Under the pieces are notes generated by a model. The model had not been told where the DNA came from. It ran no database searches and saw only the letters and a list, made by a program, of their open reading frames with translations. A stretch of DNA of 64,000 nt, taken from positions 62,001 to 126,000 of the forward strand of contig NZ_QMKQ01000009.1 in the NCBI RefSeq assembly GCF_003287975.1, given 5' to 3'. The stretch's first letter is position 1, and each line of letters begins with the position of its first letter. Position numbers and translations under genes: made by a program. The DNA comes from Arthrobacter sp. AQ5-05. Lineage in GTDB: Bacteria > Actinomycetota > Actinomycetes > Actinomycetales > Micrococcaceae. This document shows positions 6,105-15,414 of the stretch, in pieces.

Positions 6105-7121
6105 ATGCGCCCACAGGTATTGATTTGCTCGTTTCTCCAGGAAGAGCTGGTCGACCGGTTGATCGATGCCACTCCCGAGGTTGATGTCATCTACCGACCC
6201 GAACTGCTGCCGGTCCCGCAATTCGAGGCTGACCACTGGGGCAAGCCTCGTGAACTCACCCAAGGACAGTTGGCCGAGTGGCAGGGGCACCTAGCCAATG
6301 CCACCATCAAGTTCGACTTCGACTGGTGGCAACCGCGCGGTTGGCAAGAACACAGCCCACTGCTCGAATGGATCCAGGCCTCGCAGGCCGGAGTCGGTGC
6401 GCGGGCAGCAGCGATGGGGCACACCGAAGACAAGGTCCGGATCACCACCGCTGCGGGCGTGCATGCCAAGCCCTTGGCGGAATTTGCCTTGGCCGGGCTG
6501 CTTCATTTCATCCGCGAACTGCCGCGACTTGAATCGCAGAGAAGGGCGCACCGTTGGACGAACGGGGCGTCGCAGACCCTGCACGGACTACGTGCCTTGA
6601 TCATCGGTGCGGGCAGCATCGGTGGCGAAGTGGCCAGGACCTTGAGCTTCATGGGGGTCAGCTGCGACGGGACCACCCGAGGAAGCAGGCTGCTGGACAA
6701 GCCATTTGAACGATCCGTCAGCCTGCAGGAATGCCAGCTGGGGGAGTACGACATCGTGGTCCTTGCCTGCCCGCTGACCGAAGAAACCGCGGGGCTCATG
6801 GACAAACGGAGACTGTCCGAAATGAAGCAAGGGGCATTTCTCGTAAATCTGGCGCGCGGCCCGGTCATCGACCAGGAGGCCCTTCTGGACATGCTCGCCG
6901 GAGGGCATCTTGGTGGAGCCGTTCTTGACGTGGCGAATCCGGAACCACTACCAGCCGGGCACCCCTTGTGGGACGCCCCGAACCTGATCCTCTCCCCTCA
7001 TACCGCCGCAAACGTGGACGCCGAAAACGCACGTCTGGTGGAACTCTTCACGAAAAACCTGCGCCGATACCTGGACGGAGAGGCATTGCTCAATACCTAT
7101 GATCCATTCCAGGGATACTAA
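6105..7121 (+). CDS. D-isomer specific 2-hydroxyacid dehydrogenase
   Basis: 338 residues. NAD(P)-dependent reduction of 2-oxo acids to 2-hydroxy acids. The cofactor Rossmann motif GAGSIGGEVAR is near residue 165, and the catalytic triad is visible as Arg in LVNLARGPVID, Glu in DVANPEPLPAGHPLW and His in LSPHTAANV. The catalytic region also has DIVVLACPLTEET. The N-terminal substrate domain is divergent, so the substrate cannot be read. It diverges from the paaX-like gene by about 140 bp and could belong to the aromatic locus (for example acting on a pyruvate-like product), but nothing ties it firmly. TGGAG precedes the ATG. Confidence 0.9.
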   Translation: MRPQVLICSFLQEELVDRLIDATPEVDVIYRPELLPVPQFEADHWGKPRELTQGQLAEWQGHLANATIKFDFDWWQPRGWQEHSPLLEWIQASQAGVGARAAAMGHTEDKVRITTAAGVHAKPLAEFALAGLLHFIRELPRLESQRRAHRWTNGASQTLHGLRALIIGAGSIGGEVARTLSFMGVSCDGTTRGSRLLDKPFERSVSLQECQLGEYDIVVLACPLTEETAGLMDKRRLSEMKQGAFLVNLARGPVIDQEALLDMLAGGHLGGAVLDVANPEPLPAGHPLWDAPNLILSPHTAANVDAENARLVELFTKNLRRYLDGEALLNTYDPFQGY

Positions 7122-7135
7122 TTCTGGCCAAAGAT

Positions 7136-7834
7136 TCAGGCACGGGGCGTTGCATGACGCAAGCGGCCGACCCCCAAGGGCACGGTCGTTCGCGATTCTT
7201 CCAGTAGACCGGCCTGAACGGCCAAGACAGCGAGCTGGACACGGTTGCTGACACCAAGTGGCTCCATGATTTTTGCCAGTTGCGCCTTGACCGTGCCCTC
7301 ACTGACATGCAGCAATGCGGCGATTTGGACGTTGGTGAGGCCTTCTGACAGCGCTTGTAGTATGCGTCGATCGCGAGGTCCGGTCTGACGCAATAGTTGC
7401 GATTTCAAGTCGTACTTGCTCGCGGAGTGGGGCGGGAACTGGTCCGCATCCGTGGGCTTGGAGAAGATCATGTTTCCCGAGTGGATCATCCGAAGCGCGG
7501 CGCCCAGGTCGGTTGAAATCGAATTCTTGGCCAGGTAGCTGCAGGCACCCGCCGAGTGGGCTCTGGCCATGGTCTCGATGTCGTGGGTCGACGAGAGCAT
7601 TACTACCTTCGTCCCCGGGGCCGCCGACACGATCCGCCGGGTGGCTTCCATGCTGCATATGTTGCTGAGCCTGCTTTCCATGAGGACCATGTCGGGATTT
7701 GTCTCCAGTGCCGCGTCAGCGGCGTCGTTGCCGGTGCTGGTGACTTGTTCAAGCAGGACGTCCGCGCTGGCGGCCAAGAGGCTTTCCAAGCCAAGCCGAA
7801 GAAAGTAATCGCCATCAGCAAGACGGGTTCGTAT
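7136..7834 (-). pseudogene. 5'-damaged NarL/FixJ response regulator
   Basis: Reading leftward, the frame encodes a receiver domain starting IRTRLADGDYFLRLG, the beginning of a normal receiver, but no ATG, GTG or TTG precedes it before a stop at 7856-7858; the first usable start is a TTG at 7789, inside the receiver. The C-terminus is an intact LuxR-type helix-turn-helix (ILQALSEGLTNVQIAALLHVSEGTVKAQLAKIM). The usual phospho-acceptor Asp in a LMD motif is Glu here (MVLMESRL), and the acidic pair reads ADGD, so phosphorylation control is doubtful even if made. The start region seems lost at a rearrangement joining it head to head with the HTTM gene. It could still be expressed from the TTG as a DNA-binding fragment. 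Confidence 0.65.
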
Positions 7835-10387: not shown

Positions 10388-11722
10388 CTATCCAGAAACC
10401 GGTACGATCTCCTGACGTGCCGGCTTGGCCAGGCCCAGGGTCTCGCGCAGGGTGCTGCCCGGGTATGACGAGCGGAACAAGCCTCGTGCCTGCAGGATCG
10501 GAACCACGAGTTCCACGAAATCATCCAATCCCGCCGGGAAGCTTGGGCACATGAGGTTGAAGCCGTCGCAGGCGCCGGAAATGAACCACTCCTCGATCTC
10601 GTCGGCGACCTCGGTGGGAGTGCCGATCATGGTGGCATGCCCGCCGCCGGCCGCCAAGAACCCCAGCAACTCGCGAAGCGTGGGCTGCTTCGTTTCGATG
10701 ATGCGTTGCACCGTGAGGTAGCGACCCTGCGGGCCCGTGAACGCCTCGACCGGCGGCAGTTCTACCACCGGCTCATCCAGCGGATGCGAGGTGTAGTCCT
10801 GGCCCGTGAACATGTTCAACTGGGCAATGGCCGAATCGATGTCCAGGTAGGCATCCAATGCGGCCTTCTTTTCCAGAGCTTCTTCCCGAGTTGCCCCGAT
10901 GTAGGTGACCAATCCGGGAAGGATGGGAACCGAATGCCCTGCCCGTCCCACAAGTTCCAGGCGCCGTCGGATGTCGGCGGCATATTCCAGGGCCGATTCC
11001 CGGTCCCAGGAGACCGAGTAGATGGCTTCTGCGTACCGGGAGGCAAAGGAACGCCCGGCCTCCGAGGACCCTGCTTGGAAGAGCACCGGTCGTCCCTGCG
11101 GGCACCGCGGGACGGTCAGCGGGCCGGAAACCGAGAAATGGTTGCCGCGGTGGTTGATCGGGCGGATCTGGGAGGGATCGAGGTATTGGCCGGTCTCGCG
11201 GTCGACCACCAGCGCCGAATCCGACCACGAATCCCACAGTCTCTGCATCGCGTCGACGAACTCCTCGGCGCGTTCGTAGCGTTGTGCGTGCCCCGGCAAG
11301 GCATCCATCCCGTGGTTGCGGGCCTCGGCGTCGAACATGGAGGTCACCACGTTGATGCCCGCGCGTCCCGCACTGATGTGGTCGAGGGATGCCAGTAGCC
11401 GGGCGGCATGGAACGGCGTATAGAAGCTCGCAGAGATCGTGGTGACCAAGCCAATGTGCTCGGTGGCCCGCGCCATGGCGCTCAGCGCGGTCACCGGTTC
11501 GAGGAACCAGGGGATCCCTGCCGCGTACTCGTGGTTGACGCTCTGCCCGTCGGCAAAGAACACGGCATCCAGGCAACCGCGCTCCGCCAGCCGGGCCAGG
11601 TCCTCGTAGTAGGCGATGTCGCCGACGCGGTCGGCACTGGAGTCGGGGTGGCGCCACCCCATGGTGTGGTGGCCGGCGCCGTAGAAGAAGGCATTCAGGT
11701 GCAATTGGCGTGTCGAGTCCAT
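10388..11722 (-). CDS. LLM-class flavin monooxygenase (NtaA/SnaA/DszA family)
   Basis: 444 residues, the usual family length. Bacterial-luciferase-like barrel using FMNH2 from a partner reductase. Signature parts: LHLNAFFYGAGHHTMGWRHP at the start, FFADGQSV, the TTISASFYTPFHAARLLASLDHISAGRAG block, NVVTSMFDAEARNHG and the substrate/flavin segment PVLFQAGSSEAGRSFASRYAEAIY. Relatives oxidise nitrilotriacetate, dibenzothiophene sulfone, EDTA and other xenobiotics or sulfur compounds. Start ATG 11722 has GGAACG upstream; 20 bp separate it from the SDR stop, so both are in the TPP-riboswitch transcript. A thiamine-related substrate is inferred from the riboswitch alone. Confidence 0.9.
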   Translation of the reverse strand: MDSTRQLHLNAFFYGAGHHTMGWRHPDSSADRVGDIAYYEDLARLAERGCLDAVFFADGQSVNHEYAAGIPWFLEPVTALSAMARATEHIGLVTTISASFYTPFHAARLLASLDHISAGRAGINVVTSMFDAEARNHGMDALPGHAQRYERAEEFVDAMQRLWDSWSDSALVVDRETGQYLDPSQIRPINHRGNHFSVSGPLTVPRCPQGRPVLFQAGSSEAGRSFASRYAEAIYSVSWDRESALEYAADIRRRLELVGRAGHSVPILPGLVTYIGATREEALEKKAALDAYLDIDSAIAQLNMFTGQDYTSHPLDEPVVELPPVEAFTGPQGRYLTVQRIIETKQPTLRELLGFLAAGGGHATMIGTPTEVADEIEEWFISGACDGFNLMCPSFPAGLDDFVELVVPILQARGLFRSSYPGSTLRETLGLAKPARQEIVPVSG

Positions 11723-11742
11723 GAAAGGTTTCGTTCCCGTTC

Positions 11743-12507
11743 CTAGTTCATCACCAGTCCGCCGTCGACCACCAGGTTCTGCCCGGTCACCGCCCGCGAC
11801 CACGGGGAGGCAAAGAGCAGGGCTGCATCGGCGAACTCGGCAGGGGTGGTGACGCGGCGCAGGGGAGTGGACCCGGCGATCAGGTCGAAGACCTCCTCCG
11901 GCGTGGCCGCCGAGGCATCGGTGGTGCGCAGCAGACCGCCGGAGATCATGTTGACGCGGATGTTTTCCGGGCCCAGGTCCGAGGCGAACGTGCGGGTCAG
12001 GGACAGCAGCGCTGCCTTGGCCGCGGTGTAGTCGTGGTAGGGGACCACGGGGTTCTGGAAGAGGTTGGTGCCGATGTTGACGATGTTGCCAAAGCCAGCG
12101 GATTTCATGCCAGGCAAGGTCGCCTGGATCGTGTTTAGTGCACCGCCGATGATGCCGGTGAATTGCGCCCCGAATTCCGTGTAGCCGATCCCGTCCGCCT
12201 TGGAGCGGGCATCGCCATTGAACGAAAAGTCCGGCAGCGCATTGTTGATCACCGTGGTGATCGGGGCGCCAAAGTGTGCCAGTGCCGTGGCCACCAGCTC
12301 GGCGACCTGTTCCGGGTCTGAGACGTCGGCTCGCACCGCGAGCGCGCGATCCGTCCCGATCTCGGCGGCCAGTTCCTGGGTCGCGGATTCACTGGAGCGG
12401 TAGTTCAGCACGAGCCGTGCGCCCTCGCGGGCAAAGGATCGGGCCAGGTCGGTTCCCAGCCCGCGGCCGGCACCGGTGATAAGTACGATTTGGTCCTTGA
12501 TGAGCAT
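11743..12507 (-). CDS. SDR-family oxidoreductase under TPP riboswitch
   Basis: 254 residues from ATG 12507 (AAAGGTG upstream). Classical SDR: cofactor motif TGAGRGLG at residues 11-18, NNALP in place of the common NNAG, and active-site YTAAK with a preceding Asn-Ile-Gly strand (IVNIGTNLF), where the catalytic Ser is not obvious. C-terminal GQNLVVDGG is typical. First gene of a two-gene operon with the flavin monooxygenase. In-frame ATGs upstream exist within the leader, but the ribosome site and the SDR fold both start here. Comparative genomics has previously connected an SDR (oarX) with TPP elements, as I recall; whether this is that group I cannot tell. Confidence 0.88.
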   Translation of the reverse strand: MLIKDQIVLITGAGRGLGTDLARSFAREGARLVLNYRSSESATQELAAEIGTDRALAVRADVSDPEQVAELVATALAHFGAPITTVINNALPDFSFNGDARSKADGIGYTEFGAQFTGIIGGALNTIQATLPGMKSAGFGNIVNIGTNLFQNPVVPYHDYTAAKAALLSLTRTFASDLGPENIRVNMISGGLLRTTDASAATPEEVFDLIAGSTPLRRVTTPAEFADAALLFASPWSRAVTGQNLVVDGGLVMN

Positions 12508-12516
12508 TCCCTTGCA

Positions 12517-12536
12517 CCTTTCGTTGGAGCGAAAGG
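12517..12536 (-). promoter_or_regulatory. Hairpin masking the SDR ribosome-binding site
   Basis: On the coding strand CCTTTCG, a six-base loop and CGAAAGG form a perfect 7-bp hairpin; the second arm contains the AAAGG of the ribosome site ten bases before the ATG at 12507. This fits a translational off-switch working with the riboswitch. Confidence 0.6.
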
Positions 12537-12568
12537 ATGCCATGGAACCGCCACATGGTACCCAAAAG

Positions 12569-12577
12569 CGGGGTGCC
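12569..12577 (-). promoter_or_regulatory. Riboswitch expression-platform strand complementary to the aptamer
   Basis: On the coding strand GGCACCCCG is the exact 9-base complement of CGGGGTGCC at 12660-12668, the 5' strand of the aptamer's P2/P3. Pairing the two would break the aptamer, so this looks like the switching segment. Confidence 0.6.
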
Positions 12578-12592
12578 ACAAGGCGACATGCC

Positions 12593-12678
12593 GGACCGGC
12601 ATCCCTTCGCTCGGATTATCGAGATCAGGTTCAACGGGTCTATCTCTCAGCCGCCAGGCGGCACCCCGTGTCGAGTCC
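12593..12678 (-). ncRNA. TPP riboswitch (THI element)
   Basis: On the coding strand the conserved THI-box parts are all present in order: CGGGGTGCC, a short GCCGCC-TGG-CGGC P3 stem, CTGAGA, GACCCG, TTGAACCTGATC, a P4 CTCG/CGAG stem and GCGAAGGGATGCC. P1 can form between GGAC and GTCC at the ends. TPP riboswitches bind thiamin pyrophosphate and switch off thiamin synthesis or uptake genes. Here it lies 86 nt ahead of the SDR start and is followed by a complementary switching strand and a hairpin over the ribosome site, pointing to control of translation. Confidence 0.95.
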
Positions 12679-12685
12679 TACGGCC

Positions 12686-12715
12686 AACCTAGCACCGCCC
12701 CAAGCCAATCCCCAA
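12686..12715 (-). promoter_or_regulatory. Promoter for the riboswitch transcript
   Basis: TTGGGG (12710-12715) and TAGGTT (12686-12691) on the coding strand, 18 bp apart, placing the transcript start just ahead of the aptamer's first stem. Confidence 0.5.
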
Positions 12716-12757: not shown

Positions 12758-13960
12758 TCATGAAGCCGAATGCACGCGCCCGCCCTGGATGATCGTGCGG
12801 GGGCGGGACTCGTCGAAGAGCACCGACGGGTCCTCGAAGGGGTTGCCGTCCAGCAGCAGCGCATCCCCGGCCATGCCCGGGGCAAGCCTGCCCAGCGTCG
12901 GTTCCTGCAGCAGCGCCGCGTTCACGCTGGTGGCCGAGCGCAGCGTCTCAAAGACACCCACGGCCTCGATCTGCAGGGCCAGGCCGTTGAGCTGCTCATC
13001 CGCAAGGTCTCCCATCAGGTCCGAACCGAAGCCCACCTTGATCCCCGCCCTCAAGGCAATCCTGATGGCTTCGCGCCCGGCGGTGAGGACCTCGAGGTTC
13101 TTGGCCTTGGAAACCTCGGGCAACCCGACCTCGTCCCCGCGCCGGTCCATGGCGGCGTAGGCTGCCAGCGTGGGCACCAGGAAGGCACCATGCTCGGCCA
13201 TCAAGTCCGCGGTGGGCGTATCGAGCAGGTTGCCGTGCTCGATGGAACGCACGCCGTTGCGCACCGAGTGGGCGATGGCCTCCGGCGAGTAGGCGTGGGC
13301 CGCCACGTATGAGCCGCGGCGCGTGGCCTCGGCGACGACCACCCCAATTTCCTCGTCCGAGTACTGCGGGATGGCCAGCGGGTCGGTCAGCGAGACCACA
13401 CCTCCGCTGGCCATGATCTTGATCGCGTGGGCTCCGGTGCGCAGGCGTTCACGCACGGCAATGCGCAGCGGCTCGGGCCCGTCCACGACCTCACACATAT
13501 GGCCGTGGCCGAAGCAGACATCCACGTCCGCCTCGCGAGGGTCCCCGTGCCCGCCGGTCTGGCTCAGGGCAGGGCCGGTGTAGAAGTATCGCGGGGATTC
13601 CAGCAGACCGGCCTTGATGGCGCTGGACAAACCGATGTCCCCGCCGGCCACGTCGCGCACGGTGGTGAAGCCGCGGGACAGGGCCTCGCCCAGGCGCTTG
13701 GCCCCGGCCAGGGCCGCGAAGGAAAGCGGGCCGCGTTCGTTGCGGAACCCGTCCAGCGAGATGGCGTAGGCGTGGAAGTGGGCGTCGATAAGCCCGGGGA
13801 TTAGGACCCGTCCGTTGGCCGGGAGCAGTTCCCCCGCCTCCTGGGTGCCGATGGCCATGACCATTCCGTCCTTGAAGGTCACGTTGCCGCGGAGAAGCTC
13901 GGGGTTTTCGCCGTCGAAGACCAGCGCGTCGGTGATGGTCAGGACAGGTGCGTGGCTCAT
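12758..13960 (-). CDS. Amidohydrolase (imidazolonepropionase/prolidase-like)
   Basis: 400 residues. Metal-dependent hydrolase fold: N-terminal strand domain (ITDALVFDGENPELL), the metal motif LIPGLIDAHFHAY, a probable carboxylated-lysine or metal segment AIKIMASGGV, YVAAHAYSPEAIAHSVRNGVRSIEHGN with two His ligands, and a C-terminal VGFGSDLMG with the catalytic Asp. This pattern is that of Xaa-Pro dipeptidase-like and related M38 amidohydrolases. The ATG at 13960 overlaps the stop of the aminopeptidase gene as ATGA. Coupling with an Xaa-Pro aminopeptidase suggests peptide or dipeptide degradation; the exact substrate is not visible. Confidence 0.87.
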   Translation of the reverse strand: MSHAPVLTITDALVFDGENPELLRGNVTFKDGMVMAIGTQEAGELLPANGRVLIPGLIDAHFHAYAISLDGFRNERGPLSFAALAGAKRLGEALSRGFTTVRDVAGGDIGLSSAIKAGLLESPRYFYTGPALSQTGGHGDPREADVDVCFGHGHMCEVVDGPEPLRIAVRERLRTGAHAIKIMASGGVVSLTDPLAIPQYSDEEIGVVVAEATRRGSYVAAHAYSPEAIAHSVRNGVRSIEHGNLLDTPTADLMAEHGAFLVPTLAAYAAMDRRGDEVGLPEVSKAKNLEVLTAGREAIRIALRAGIKVGFGSDLMGDLADEQLNGLALQIEAVGVFETLRSATSVNAALLQEPTLGRLAPGMAGDALLLDGNPFEDPSVLFDESRPRTIIQGGRVHSAS

Positions 13961-15414
13961 GCCTTGGCCCCTGCCTGTGCTGCCATCCAGGCCTCGATGC
14001 CGTCGGCGTCGATGGGCAGTGCGTCGGAGAGGTTCTCGTGCCCGTCGGCGGTGACCAGCAGGTCGTCCTCGAGACGAACTCCCATGCCGCGCAGTTCCGG
14101 CGGAACCATTTCGTCGTGCTGGTGGAAGTAGAGGCCCGGTTCCACGGTGAGCACCATGTTTTCCTGCAGCACGGCGCCCTGGTACTCCTCGTATGAGGCC
14201 GAGGAACAGTCGTGGACGTCCAGGCCCAGGTGGTGGCCGACCCCGCAGACCAGCCAGCGGCGGTGGTGCTGGCCGGCGGGGGAGAGCGCCTCGTCGACGG
14301 AGACCGGGAGCATGCCCCAGTCGCTCAGGCCGTTGGCGATGACCTCCATGATGGAGGTGTGGAAGGCAGTGAAATCCTTGCCGGGGGCGATCTGGGCCAG
14401 GCCTGCGCGGTGCGCCTTTTCCACCAGGTCGTGGACTTCGCGTTGGGCGGTGGTGAAGCGGCCATTGGCCGGGAAGGTCCGGGTCACGTCGGCGGTGTAG
14501 AAGCTGCTTTCCTCCACGCCCATGTCCAGCAGGAGCAGCTCGGATTCCTGGACCGGTCCATCGCACCGGACCCAGTGCAGGGTTGGCGCGTGGTGGCCGG
14601 AGCCGATGATCGTTGCGTAGCCCGGGCCGTGCCCGTGGGTGCGGGCGACCCGATCAAAGGTTCCCTGCAGCCAGCGCTCGCCGCCGCCGGCGATGGCGGT
14701 GGGGATCTGGTTGATGACCTGGGAGAAACCCTCGATGGTGTGGGTGACGGAGTTGCGCAGCTCGGTGATCTCCCATTCGTCCTTCAGCAGGCGAAGTTCG
14801 GCCAGCGTGCGGCGCAGCACGGCCGAGGGCTTCAGCGAATGGGTTGCCACCATCGAGGAACCAAGGTTGCCGGCGGCCTGTGCGCCGGAAAGCCGTGCCA
14901 GGGCCTCGTCCAGCGCACCGAGCGGGGAGGTTGGCAGACCGAGTGCTTGTTCCCAGTGGGTGGGACCGTGGGCGGCGCCGACCCAGAGTTCGCCGTGCGC
15001 GGCGCTGGCGAAGAACGCGGGGTCCCCGGGCAGTGCGGGGGCCGGGACAAAGAGTCGGTAGTCGTGCCCGCCGGAGGACGGGGTACCCACCAGCACCGCG
15101 CCCTCGGCGTGGCAGTTGGTCAGCCACAGGAAGTCCGAGTGGGGCCGGAAGTCGTAGAAGCAGTCGTTGCTGCGCACCGGCGCCCACCCCGCGGCAACCA
15201 CGAAGGCCACCCCGGGCAGCGCTGCCGAGAGCTTGGCACGGTGGGCAGCCGCGGCGCCCGCTGCATCGGGTGTGGCGGCGGGGGTGCGCTCGGGCTCGGC
15301 CCATCCCTGGGTCATCCACTGCGTGAAGGCCGGCACCTCGGCCAGCCTTGGCAGCTTCGGGTCGGCCGTGGCGGGTGCGGGCATGGAGGCTGTTTTTTGC
15401 TCGGAAGTGTTCAC
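13957..15414 (-). CDS. pepP: Xaa-Pro aminopeptidase (aminopeptidase P, M24B)
   Basis: 485 residues from the GTG at 15414; other starts are possible because there is no strong ribosome site. N-terminal AMP_N domain (VRSNDCFYDFRPHSDFLWLTNC) and C-terminal pita-bread metallopeptidase with the dinuclear metal ligands: LLDMGVEESSFYTADVTRTF (two Asp), VCGVGHHLGLDVHD (His), VLTVEPGLYF (Glu) and RLEDDLLVT (Glu). Cleaves the N-terminal residue from peptides with proline at position two. Translationally coupled to the amidohydrolase, which may finish the resulting fragments. Divergent from tex. Confidence 0.92.
   Translation of the reverse strand: MNTSEQKTASMPAPATADPKLPRLAEVPAFTQWMTQGWAEPERTPAATPDAAGAAAAHRAKLSAALPGVAFVVAAGWAPVRSNDCFYDFRPHSDFLWLTNCHAEGAVLVGTPSSGGHDYRLFVPAPALPGDPAFFASAAHGELWVGAAHGPTHWEQALGLPTSPLGALDEALARLSGAQAAGNLGSSMVATHSLKPSAVLRRTLAELRLLKDEWEITELRNSVTHTIEGFSQVINQIPTAIAGGGERWLQGTFDRVARTHGHGPGYATIIGSGHHAPTLHWVRCDGPVQESELLLLDMGVEESSFYTADVTRTFPANGRFTTAQREVHDLVEKAHRAGLAQIAPGKDFTAFHTSIMEVIANGLSDWGMLPVSVDEALSPAGQHHRRWLVCGVGHHLGLDVHDCSSASYEEYQGAVLQENMVLTVEPGLYFHQHDEMVPPELRGMGVRLEDDLLVTADGHENLSDALPIDADGIEAWMAAQAGAKA

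Follow-up and report, generated by a model that had tools for sequence, protein, structure and literature searches.

Thiamin pyrophosphate (TPP) riboswitches (RF00059) are known as OFF-type switches of thiamin regulons that include thiM, thiC and longer thi operons. We describe here a unit that has the same aptamer family and OFF-type control, but in which the regulated genes encode a short-chain dehydrogenase/reductase (SDR) and a flavin-dependent monooxygenase of the LLM type (LLM). The unit lies on the minus strand of a 64 kb stretch of DNA from Arthrobacter sp. AQ5-05 (contig NZ_QMKQ01000009.1), referred to hereafter as the window. Judged by its sequence, the unit belongs to the thiamin regulon and, as in the known regulons, the pair shares a gene run with thi genes in a few other taxa. 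Its role is very probably thiamin salvage. That this TPP-repressed operon recovers a building block of thiamin, most likely the pyrimidine, by way of an aldehyde to hydroxymethylpyrimidine (HMP) is a reading that we place just short of an even call. Riboswitch regulons are good predictors of gene function, and a TPP-controlled two-enzyme unit in three phyla, to which our literature search gave no role, points to a gap in thiamin metabolism.

Other described systems resemble parts of the unit. Like the TenA/YlmB pathway of pyrimidine salvage, the unit would feed HMP to ThiD. However, TenA and YlmB are hydrolases and not flavin or NAD(P)H enzymes, and TenA co-occurs with the unit (43 of 50 carrier genomes) rather than being replaced by it. 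We know of no TPP control of the cmo genes, whose product CmoJ/YtnJ of Bacillus is the nearest solved relative of the LLM (41% identity in the fold match to 6ask, E 3.0e-44). In a sequence alignment, the YtnJ rows lack the HH near the N-terminus and the GPxGRY, GGGH and GFNLM stretches of the unit's LLMs. Since the unit LLMs have these conserved stretches of their own, their substrate probably differs. Riboflavin lyase RcaE cleaves a vitamin oxidatively at the side chain of a ring nitrogen; it has the same fold and family as the LLM (5w48), but the identity is low (32%) and the substrate is riboflavin. A 2002 survey of thiamin regulons is reported to have listed a TPP-controlled oxoacyl-reductase-like gene, oarX, with no role assigned; we therefore do not claim a first report of the SDR. 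For transport, the parallel is ThiV of SAR11, which PMC11452348 describes as an SSF symporter under a TPP riboswitch and the likely HMP transporter of SAR11; in 22 of the 28 Pseudomonadota loci the unit has an SSF symporter with its own TPP aptamer as a neighbour. Our literature search found no SDR or LLM enzyme tied to a TPP riboswitch; further papers or supplements could hold such a link. None was found in the available portions of PMC3766115, PMC12452182 and PMC11452348, and the main text of the first (Sun et al. 2013), as far as it was available, contains none of the words monooxygenase, oxidoreductase, dehydrogenase and reductase. Both this kind of riboswitch and the protein families have been described before; our literature search turned up neither the regulated unit nor its spread across phyla.

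In minus-strand order the unit consists of a TAnnnT hexamer, the TPP aptamer, another 77 nt of leader, the SDR gene and the LLM gene. Its features, in window coordinates, are as follows.

12686..12691, minus strand: TAGGTT, a possible -10 hexamer just upstream of the aptamer; TAnnnT is kept in 10/10 genus leaders (alignment)
12585..12678, minus strand: TPP riboswitch aptamer (THI element), RF00059 67.5 bits, E 4.1e-11, model positions 1-105
12598..12609, minus strand: 3' strand of the aptamer, CGAAGGGAUGCC, to which the anti-aptamer segment is complementary; invariant in 10/10 genus leaders
12569..12577, minus strand: complementary strand proposed from the letters alone, not conserved
12530..12541, minus strand: switching segment GGCAUCCUUUCG, complementary to the aptamer 3' strand or to the ribosome site
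12514..12523, minus strand: CGAAAGGUGC, which contains the Shine-Dalgarno-like GAAAGG, pairs with the GGCAUCCUUUCG segment and forms the 3' arm of the hairpin over the likely ribosome site
11743..12507, minus strand: SDR gene, 254 aa (ATG 12507, stop 11743)
10388..11722, minus strand: gene of the LLM flavin-dependent monooxygenase, NtaA/DmoA family, 444 aa (ATG 11722, stop 10388)

A sequence-only reading of this DNA had called a full THI-box aptamer in front of a two-gene operon. The aptamer is genuine: its score exceeded the RF00059 gathering score of 54.3 bits, and it was the sole gathering-level Rfam match across the window. The operon stood as well, with the LLM start 20 nt past the SDR stop, and so did the identities proposed for its products. 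The SDR scored 417.8 bits against NF006393/PRK08642 (equivalog cut-off 292) and the LLM scored 523.6 bits against TIGR03860, NtaA/DmoA (curated cut-off 279.7). Of the promoter placed before the aptamer, a possible -10 hexamer pattern is kept throughout the genus leaders, but a generic sigma-70 promoter scan did not select TAGGTT at 12691-12686.

The link to thiamin is carried by conservation of the arrangement. Among 15 genomes sampled from the genus, the LLM was present at 76-100% identity in 10. Twenty of the 30 LLM loci (10 orthologues and 10 paralogues) were checked for an aptamer, which was found upstream of all 10 orthologues versus none of the 10 paralogue loci. For a wide survey, genome contigs were scanned with an alignment of four LLMs and the best 80 of at least 537 relatives (at least 594 stretches) were taken, so that the figures for the 80 loci describe the closest relatives and not the whole LLM family. 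The SDR gene was directly upstream of the LLM gene on the same strand in 76 of the 80 loci, and because of this adjacency the two enzymes probably act together. A same-strand aptamer, called by motif scan or Rfam no more than 450 nt ahead of the SDR, or ahead of the LLM in loci that lack the SDR, was present in 70 loci; with L047 and L119, where it opens a longer series of thi genes, the count is 72/80. Units with an aptamer span Actinomycetota, Pseudomonadota and Bacillota. Such retention of TPP control across lineages is expected of thiamin salvage enzymes. The neighbourhood survey that had been suggested for these homologues supports the thiamin link, with the aptamer in 72 of the 80 units, and the salvage or repair role first proposed for the pair is the best remaining reading after it. 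The aptamer also precedes all six Bacilli units that came from the background control described below (L157-L162); at least three of these duplicate survey loci in sequence. In a tree made by a quick method, with long branches flagged and L040 omitted as too short, the unit LLMs (100 rows, a few identical) were split from 23 paralogues by a branch with a support of 98.

Neither motif scan nor Rfam detected an aptamer in the remaining eight units. In two of them (L055 and L067) the aptamer looks degenerate by eye, and five Achromobacter loci (L050, L070, L085, L093 and L111) and one of Carnimonas (L087) had none on the LLM side. As the Achromobacter LLM rows lie inside the unit clade, these units probably lost the aptamer. 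Pairs free of any thiamin signal had been named in advance as the observation that would speak against a thiamin link; this applies to the eight loci only, of which two look degenerate and five stand beside a TPP-controlled symporter.

Individual loci depart from the common layout. In all five Achromobacter loci the LLM adjoins a TPP-controlled SSF symporter, and in three of them (L070, L093 and L111) the SDR is absent as well. Rhodococcus ruber (L043) has two tandem TPP motifs upstream of the SDR (6813-6860 and 7105-7153, about 290 nt apart), and in Jeotgalibacillus (L116, the same sequence as L162) each gene has its own switch, with aptamers at 6558-6616 before the SDR and at 7694-7751 before the LLM. 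The LLM frame contains an internal stop in L119:8001-9299 and L082:3813-5102 (residues 104 and 249 of the matched stretch), a sign of decay or of sequencing error. Locus L071, from a bin titled Rhodococcus sp. and placed under a cyanobacterial family, is probably a mislabelled or mixed record.

Translational control, off with TPP, and a hairpin over the ribosome site had also been proposed, and ribosome-site pairing patterns consistent with both were found in all ten genus leaders. Segment 12541-12530 pairs with 12609-12598 at 12/12 positions in nine leaders and at 11/12 in one. In its 10-pair form, the ribosome-site hairpin has 10/10 pairs in six leaders and 9/10 in the other four; one pair shows a two-sided change, which is too little to prove the hairpin by covariation, and the pair counts are not above shuffles. 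The longest match between aptamer and leader was 14-15 nt in nine leaders (P ≤ 0.001, 1000 shuffles each) and 10 nt in the L014 leader (P 0.041, 1000 shuffles). As patterns of sequence only, mutually exclusive pairings are possible in 10/10 leaders and, because the two pairings of 12541-12530 exclude each other, TPP binding would close the ribosome site. The genus platform thus looks like an OFF-type ribosome-site switch acting on translation. The minimum-energy fold of the window leader contained the hairpin and not the aptamer, a ligand-free fold that cannot decide the matter. Strand 12569-12577, which the sequence-only reading had taken for the switch strand, was rejected as a conserved anti-aptamer: it is complementary to 12668-12660 in the window, but the pairing is complete (9/9) in only 4 of 10 leaders, 6/9 in five and 3/9 in one, and it is therefore no conserved part of the switch. 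The conserved segment is 12541-12530 instead.

For most leaders outside the genus, complementarity to the aptamer did not exceed that of shuffles (P ≤ 0.05 in 14 of 69), and pairing of the GGCAUCCUUUCG-CGAAGGGAUGCC type is therefore claimed for this genus only. In each of the 14 Bacillota leaders examined, the aptamer is followed by a 12-position hairpin (no more than one mismatch) and then by a T run; the same script reported no hairpin with a T run for other leaders. The Bacillota platform is a predicted terminator with the same OFF logic. One aptamer served by two platforms in front of one gene pair argues that the regulation is selected.

The predicted structures place both enzymes in familiar folds. 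The model of the LLM (predicted local distance difference test score, pLDDT, 90.4) matched CmoJ/YtnJ, a nitrilotriacetate-type monooxygenase and BdsA most closely among solved folds, followed in order by riboflavin lyase, EmoA, DmoA, LadA and HcbA1. These nearest folds thus include LLM relatives (NtaA, EmoA, DmoA, CmoJ and riboflavin lyase) that break C-N or C-S bonds to give aldehydes or oxo acids; CmoJ/YtnJ and BdsA cleave C-S bonds. The SDR model (pLDDT 86.8) is an ordinary SDR with best solved matches about 30% identical. Tyr160 and Lys164 are present in 29/29 aligned rows, N148, Q151, Y157 and H158 are invariant in the same alignment, and Thr147 is present in 28/29 rows at the place of the usual catalytic Ser. 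The PRK08642 name '3-oxoacyl-ACP reductase' is probably misleading for TPP-controlled members, and the genomic context would argue against such an activity of the SDR. No reductase gene lies between the SDR and LLM genes, a statement that covers the two-gene unit, as a genome-wide search was not made.

To set the unit against thiamin gene content, whole genomes were searched for 50 carriers hand-picked from the 80 loci. A ThiE match was present in all 50 (E ≤ 0.001; 49 over the cut-off), ThiG in 45 (hits >280 bits), TenA in 43, ThiM in 30 (hits >77 bits, one split gene; 15 over the curated cut-off) and ThiC in 25. All 20 carriers without ThiM have ThiG and all five without ThiG have ThiM, so none lacks both; two lack both ThiC and TenA. 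Among the 25 without ThiC, 20 have ThiG and all have ThiE. A TPP-repressed pair together with ThiE in each of these 50 carriers makes the unit probably a salvage unit. ThiM was considered as a universal partner of the unit and rejected on its presence in 30 carriers only.

The following sequence of events is proposed. When TPP is scarce, the aptamer would open, 12541-12530 would pair with the aptamer 3' strand, the ribosome site would be left free and both enzymes would be made; with TPP bound, the same segment would close the ribosome site. The FMNH2-dependent LLM would oxidise the bridge carbon of a 4-amino-2-methyl-5-(X-methyl)pyrimidine, where X may be an amine, a thioether, a sulfonate or an altered thiazole, and would release HX and pyrimidine-5-carboxaldehyde. 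The SDR with NAD(P)H would then reduce the aldehyde to HMP for use by ThiD and ThiE. Reduced flavin mononucleotide (FMN) would have to be supplied by a flavin reductase that the operon does not encode. The order put forward in the sequence-only reading, oxidation and then reduction, is chemically plausible. The pyrimidine is favoured because LLM enzymes of this family break C-N and C-S bonds to give aldehydes or oxo acids, because the partner is a reductase by family and HMP is an alcohol one step from the aldehyde, and because a role in HMP supply needs no ThiM. As the target in preference to thiazole or whole thiamin, the pyrimidine is evenly balanced in our judgement; the aldehyde step is a tentative proposal. 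The fullest version, a new oxygen-dependent branch of thiamin metabolism in which the LLM removes varied substituents from the bridge carbon of pyrimidines derived from thiamin, the SDR yields HMP as an aldehyde reductase and a dedicated sodium symporter serves the Pseudomonadota, is slightly more tentative still. If it holds, the unit lets bacteria, many of which lack ThiC, live on thiamin debris that is out of reach of TenA. Identification of the substrate would correct names such as '3-oxoacyl-ACP reductase' and could account for the pyrimidine source of some strains without ThiC. According to PMC11452348, B1 auxotrophy in marine microbes most commonly takes the form of a need for HMP.

An SSF sodium symporter adjoins the unit in 23 of the 28 Pseudomonadota loci (e.g. 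L064:5366-6841). In all but one of them (22 of 23, the exception being L058) a TPP aptamer lies on the strand of the symporter. This protein is a candidate transporter for the substrate of the unit. Against solved structures it gave distant matches; SiaT, in whose numbering PMC11452348 gives the ThiV residues Tyr78, Asp139 and Phe254, was absent from the 10 matches. In Rhizobium, a gene for a siderophore-interacting-type FAD-binding protein (L095:9322-10365) begins about 40 nt after the LLM and is a possible flavin reductase partner; the LLM downstream neighbours named in other loci have no common theme.

Several results weigh against recovery of the pyrimidine. The clearest thi neighbours of the unit belong to the thiazole branch (thiM, thiG and thiO), and loss of ThiC tracks the presence of ThiM (19/30 versus 6/20, P 0.04). 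A known pyrimidine-salvage enzyme, TenA, is already present in 43 of the 50 carriers, and thiC is present in the window's own genome, where the SDR-LLM unit is therefore an addition and no replacement. The unit's symporter is no more than a candidate ThiV, and there are the eight units without a detected aptamer. The unit is also rare, with 6 carriers in the 199 genomes of one Bacilli order that served as a background control (unit LLM called at >700 bits; ThiC in 73 and ThiG in 149). Within this order all 6 carriers lack ThiC compared to 126/199 overall, an enrichment that is not significant (P 0.06), and for the 12 Bacilli among the 50 carriers, ThiC was present in 3, compared to 73 of 193 non-carriers (P 0.54). 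Loss of ThiC in 25/50 carriers had looked decisive as proof of an HMP role, but ThiC is also missing in 126/199 control genomes, and its loss in carriers is kept as weak evidence only.

The best surviving alternative is salvage or repair in the thiazole branch: the LLM would oxidise a ring-opened or otherwise altered thiazole at a C-S or C-N bond, and the SDR would regenerate hydroxyethylthiazole (HET), or a precursor of use to ThiM and ThiE. We consider this unlikely, although it keeps real support from gene neighbours. The sequence-only reading had noted the lack of thiamin synthesis and transport genes in the operon, which is true in the window; elsewhere thiM-thiE, tenI-thiO-thiG-thiF, thiG or a TPP-controlled symporter accompanies the pair. 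The order is TPP-thiM-thiE-SDR-LLM in Pseudarthrobacter (L047), TPP-SDR-LLM-thiM-thiE in Kocuria palustris (L096), where thiD and a nudix gene, controlled by a TPP aptamer of their own, face the unit, SDR-LLM followed by thiG in Marinobacter (L063 and L065) and TPP-tenI-thiO-thiG-thiF-SDR-LLM in Planococcus (L119). A thiazole route also fits the C-S cleavers CmoJ/YtnJ and BdsA among the nearest folds, the presence of ThiM in all five carriers without ThiG and the greater frequency of ThiM in carriers without ThiC. However, such clustering occurs in only 5/80 loci, one of which (L119) has the interrupted LLM frame. The 20 of 50 carriers that lack ThiM are left with no known kinase for free HET, which argues against thiazole recovery as the common role. 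Elsewhere, the surroundings of the LLM include a ThiD-like piece (43%) in L074 and, in L068, a YkoE-like gene that has an aptamer of its own; the thi-gene scan of the remaining loci gave nothing or a symporter only, save a weak ThiO-like match (26%) in L093.

It is improbable that the pair instead restores whole thiamin after oxidation or modification of the side chain (from, for example, a disulfide, an oxo form or thiamin acetate) and that a kinase then rephosphorylates it. Any thiamin-like substrate would agree with TPP control and a companion symporter, and such a role would serve genomes with or without ThiC, ThiG or ThiM, but it requires a thiamin kinase or pyrophosphokinase in every carrier, and a monooxygenase would be an odd tool for reversing an oxidation. 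We give still less credence to a missing or alternative de novo step, in which an oxygen-dependent reaction would make HMP (or a thiazole precursor) out of a cell metabolite instead of thiamin debris. The 25 carriers without ThiC, with ThiE in all and ThiG in most, would suit it; ThiC is nevertheless present in the other 25 and in the window's own genome, genomes that lack ThiC and do not have the unit either are common, and TenA in 43/50 carriers points to salvage. That an ordinary catabolic SDR-LLM pair gained its aptamer by chance is highly improbable, since the eight units and the genus paralogues (0/10) without an aptamer stand against its retention in 72/80 units of three phyla with differing expression platforms, and the survey contradicts it.

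The unit is one of several TPP-controlled loci in its genome. RF00059 matches the Arthrobacter sp. AQ5-05 assembly at five sites, of which four exceed the cut-off; the four matches outside the unit head thiM-thiE (L002), a PF09819 permease gene (L003), thiC (L004) and a DAO-family gene (L005). The permease is of the YkoE family, and the DAO-family gene appears to be thiO-like. The match at L005 (G000:C27:5352-5484) is long and, at 47.2 bits, below the gathering score; one such sub-cut-off RF00059 match of 43-51 bits occurs in each of 12/15 genus genomes, its downstream gene having been viewed in the window genome only. In the window, an amidohydrolase gene (12758-13975) and an M24 aminopeptidase gene lie upstream on the same strand, outside the unit. 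Downstream of a genus LLM paralogue, on the same strand, lies a SAM riboswitch (RF00162, L034:217-311).

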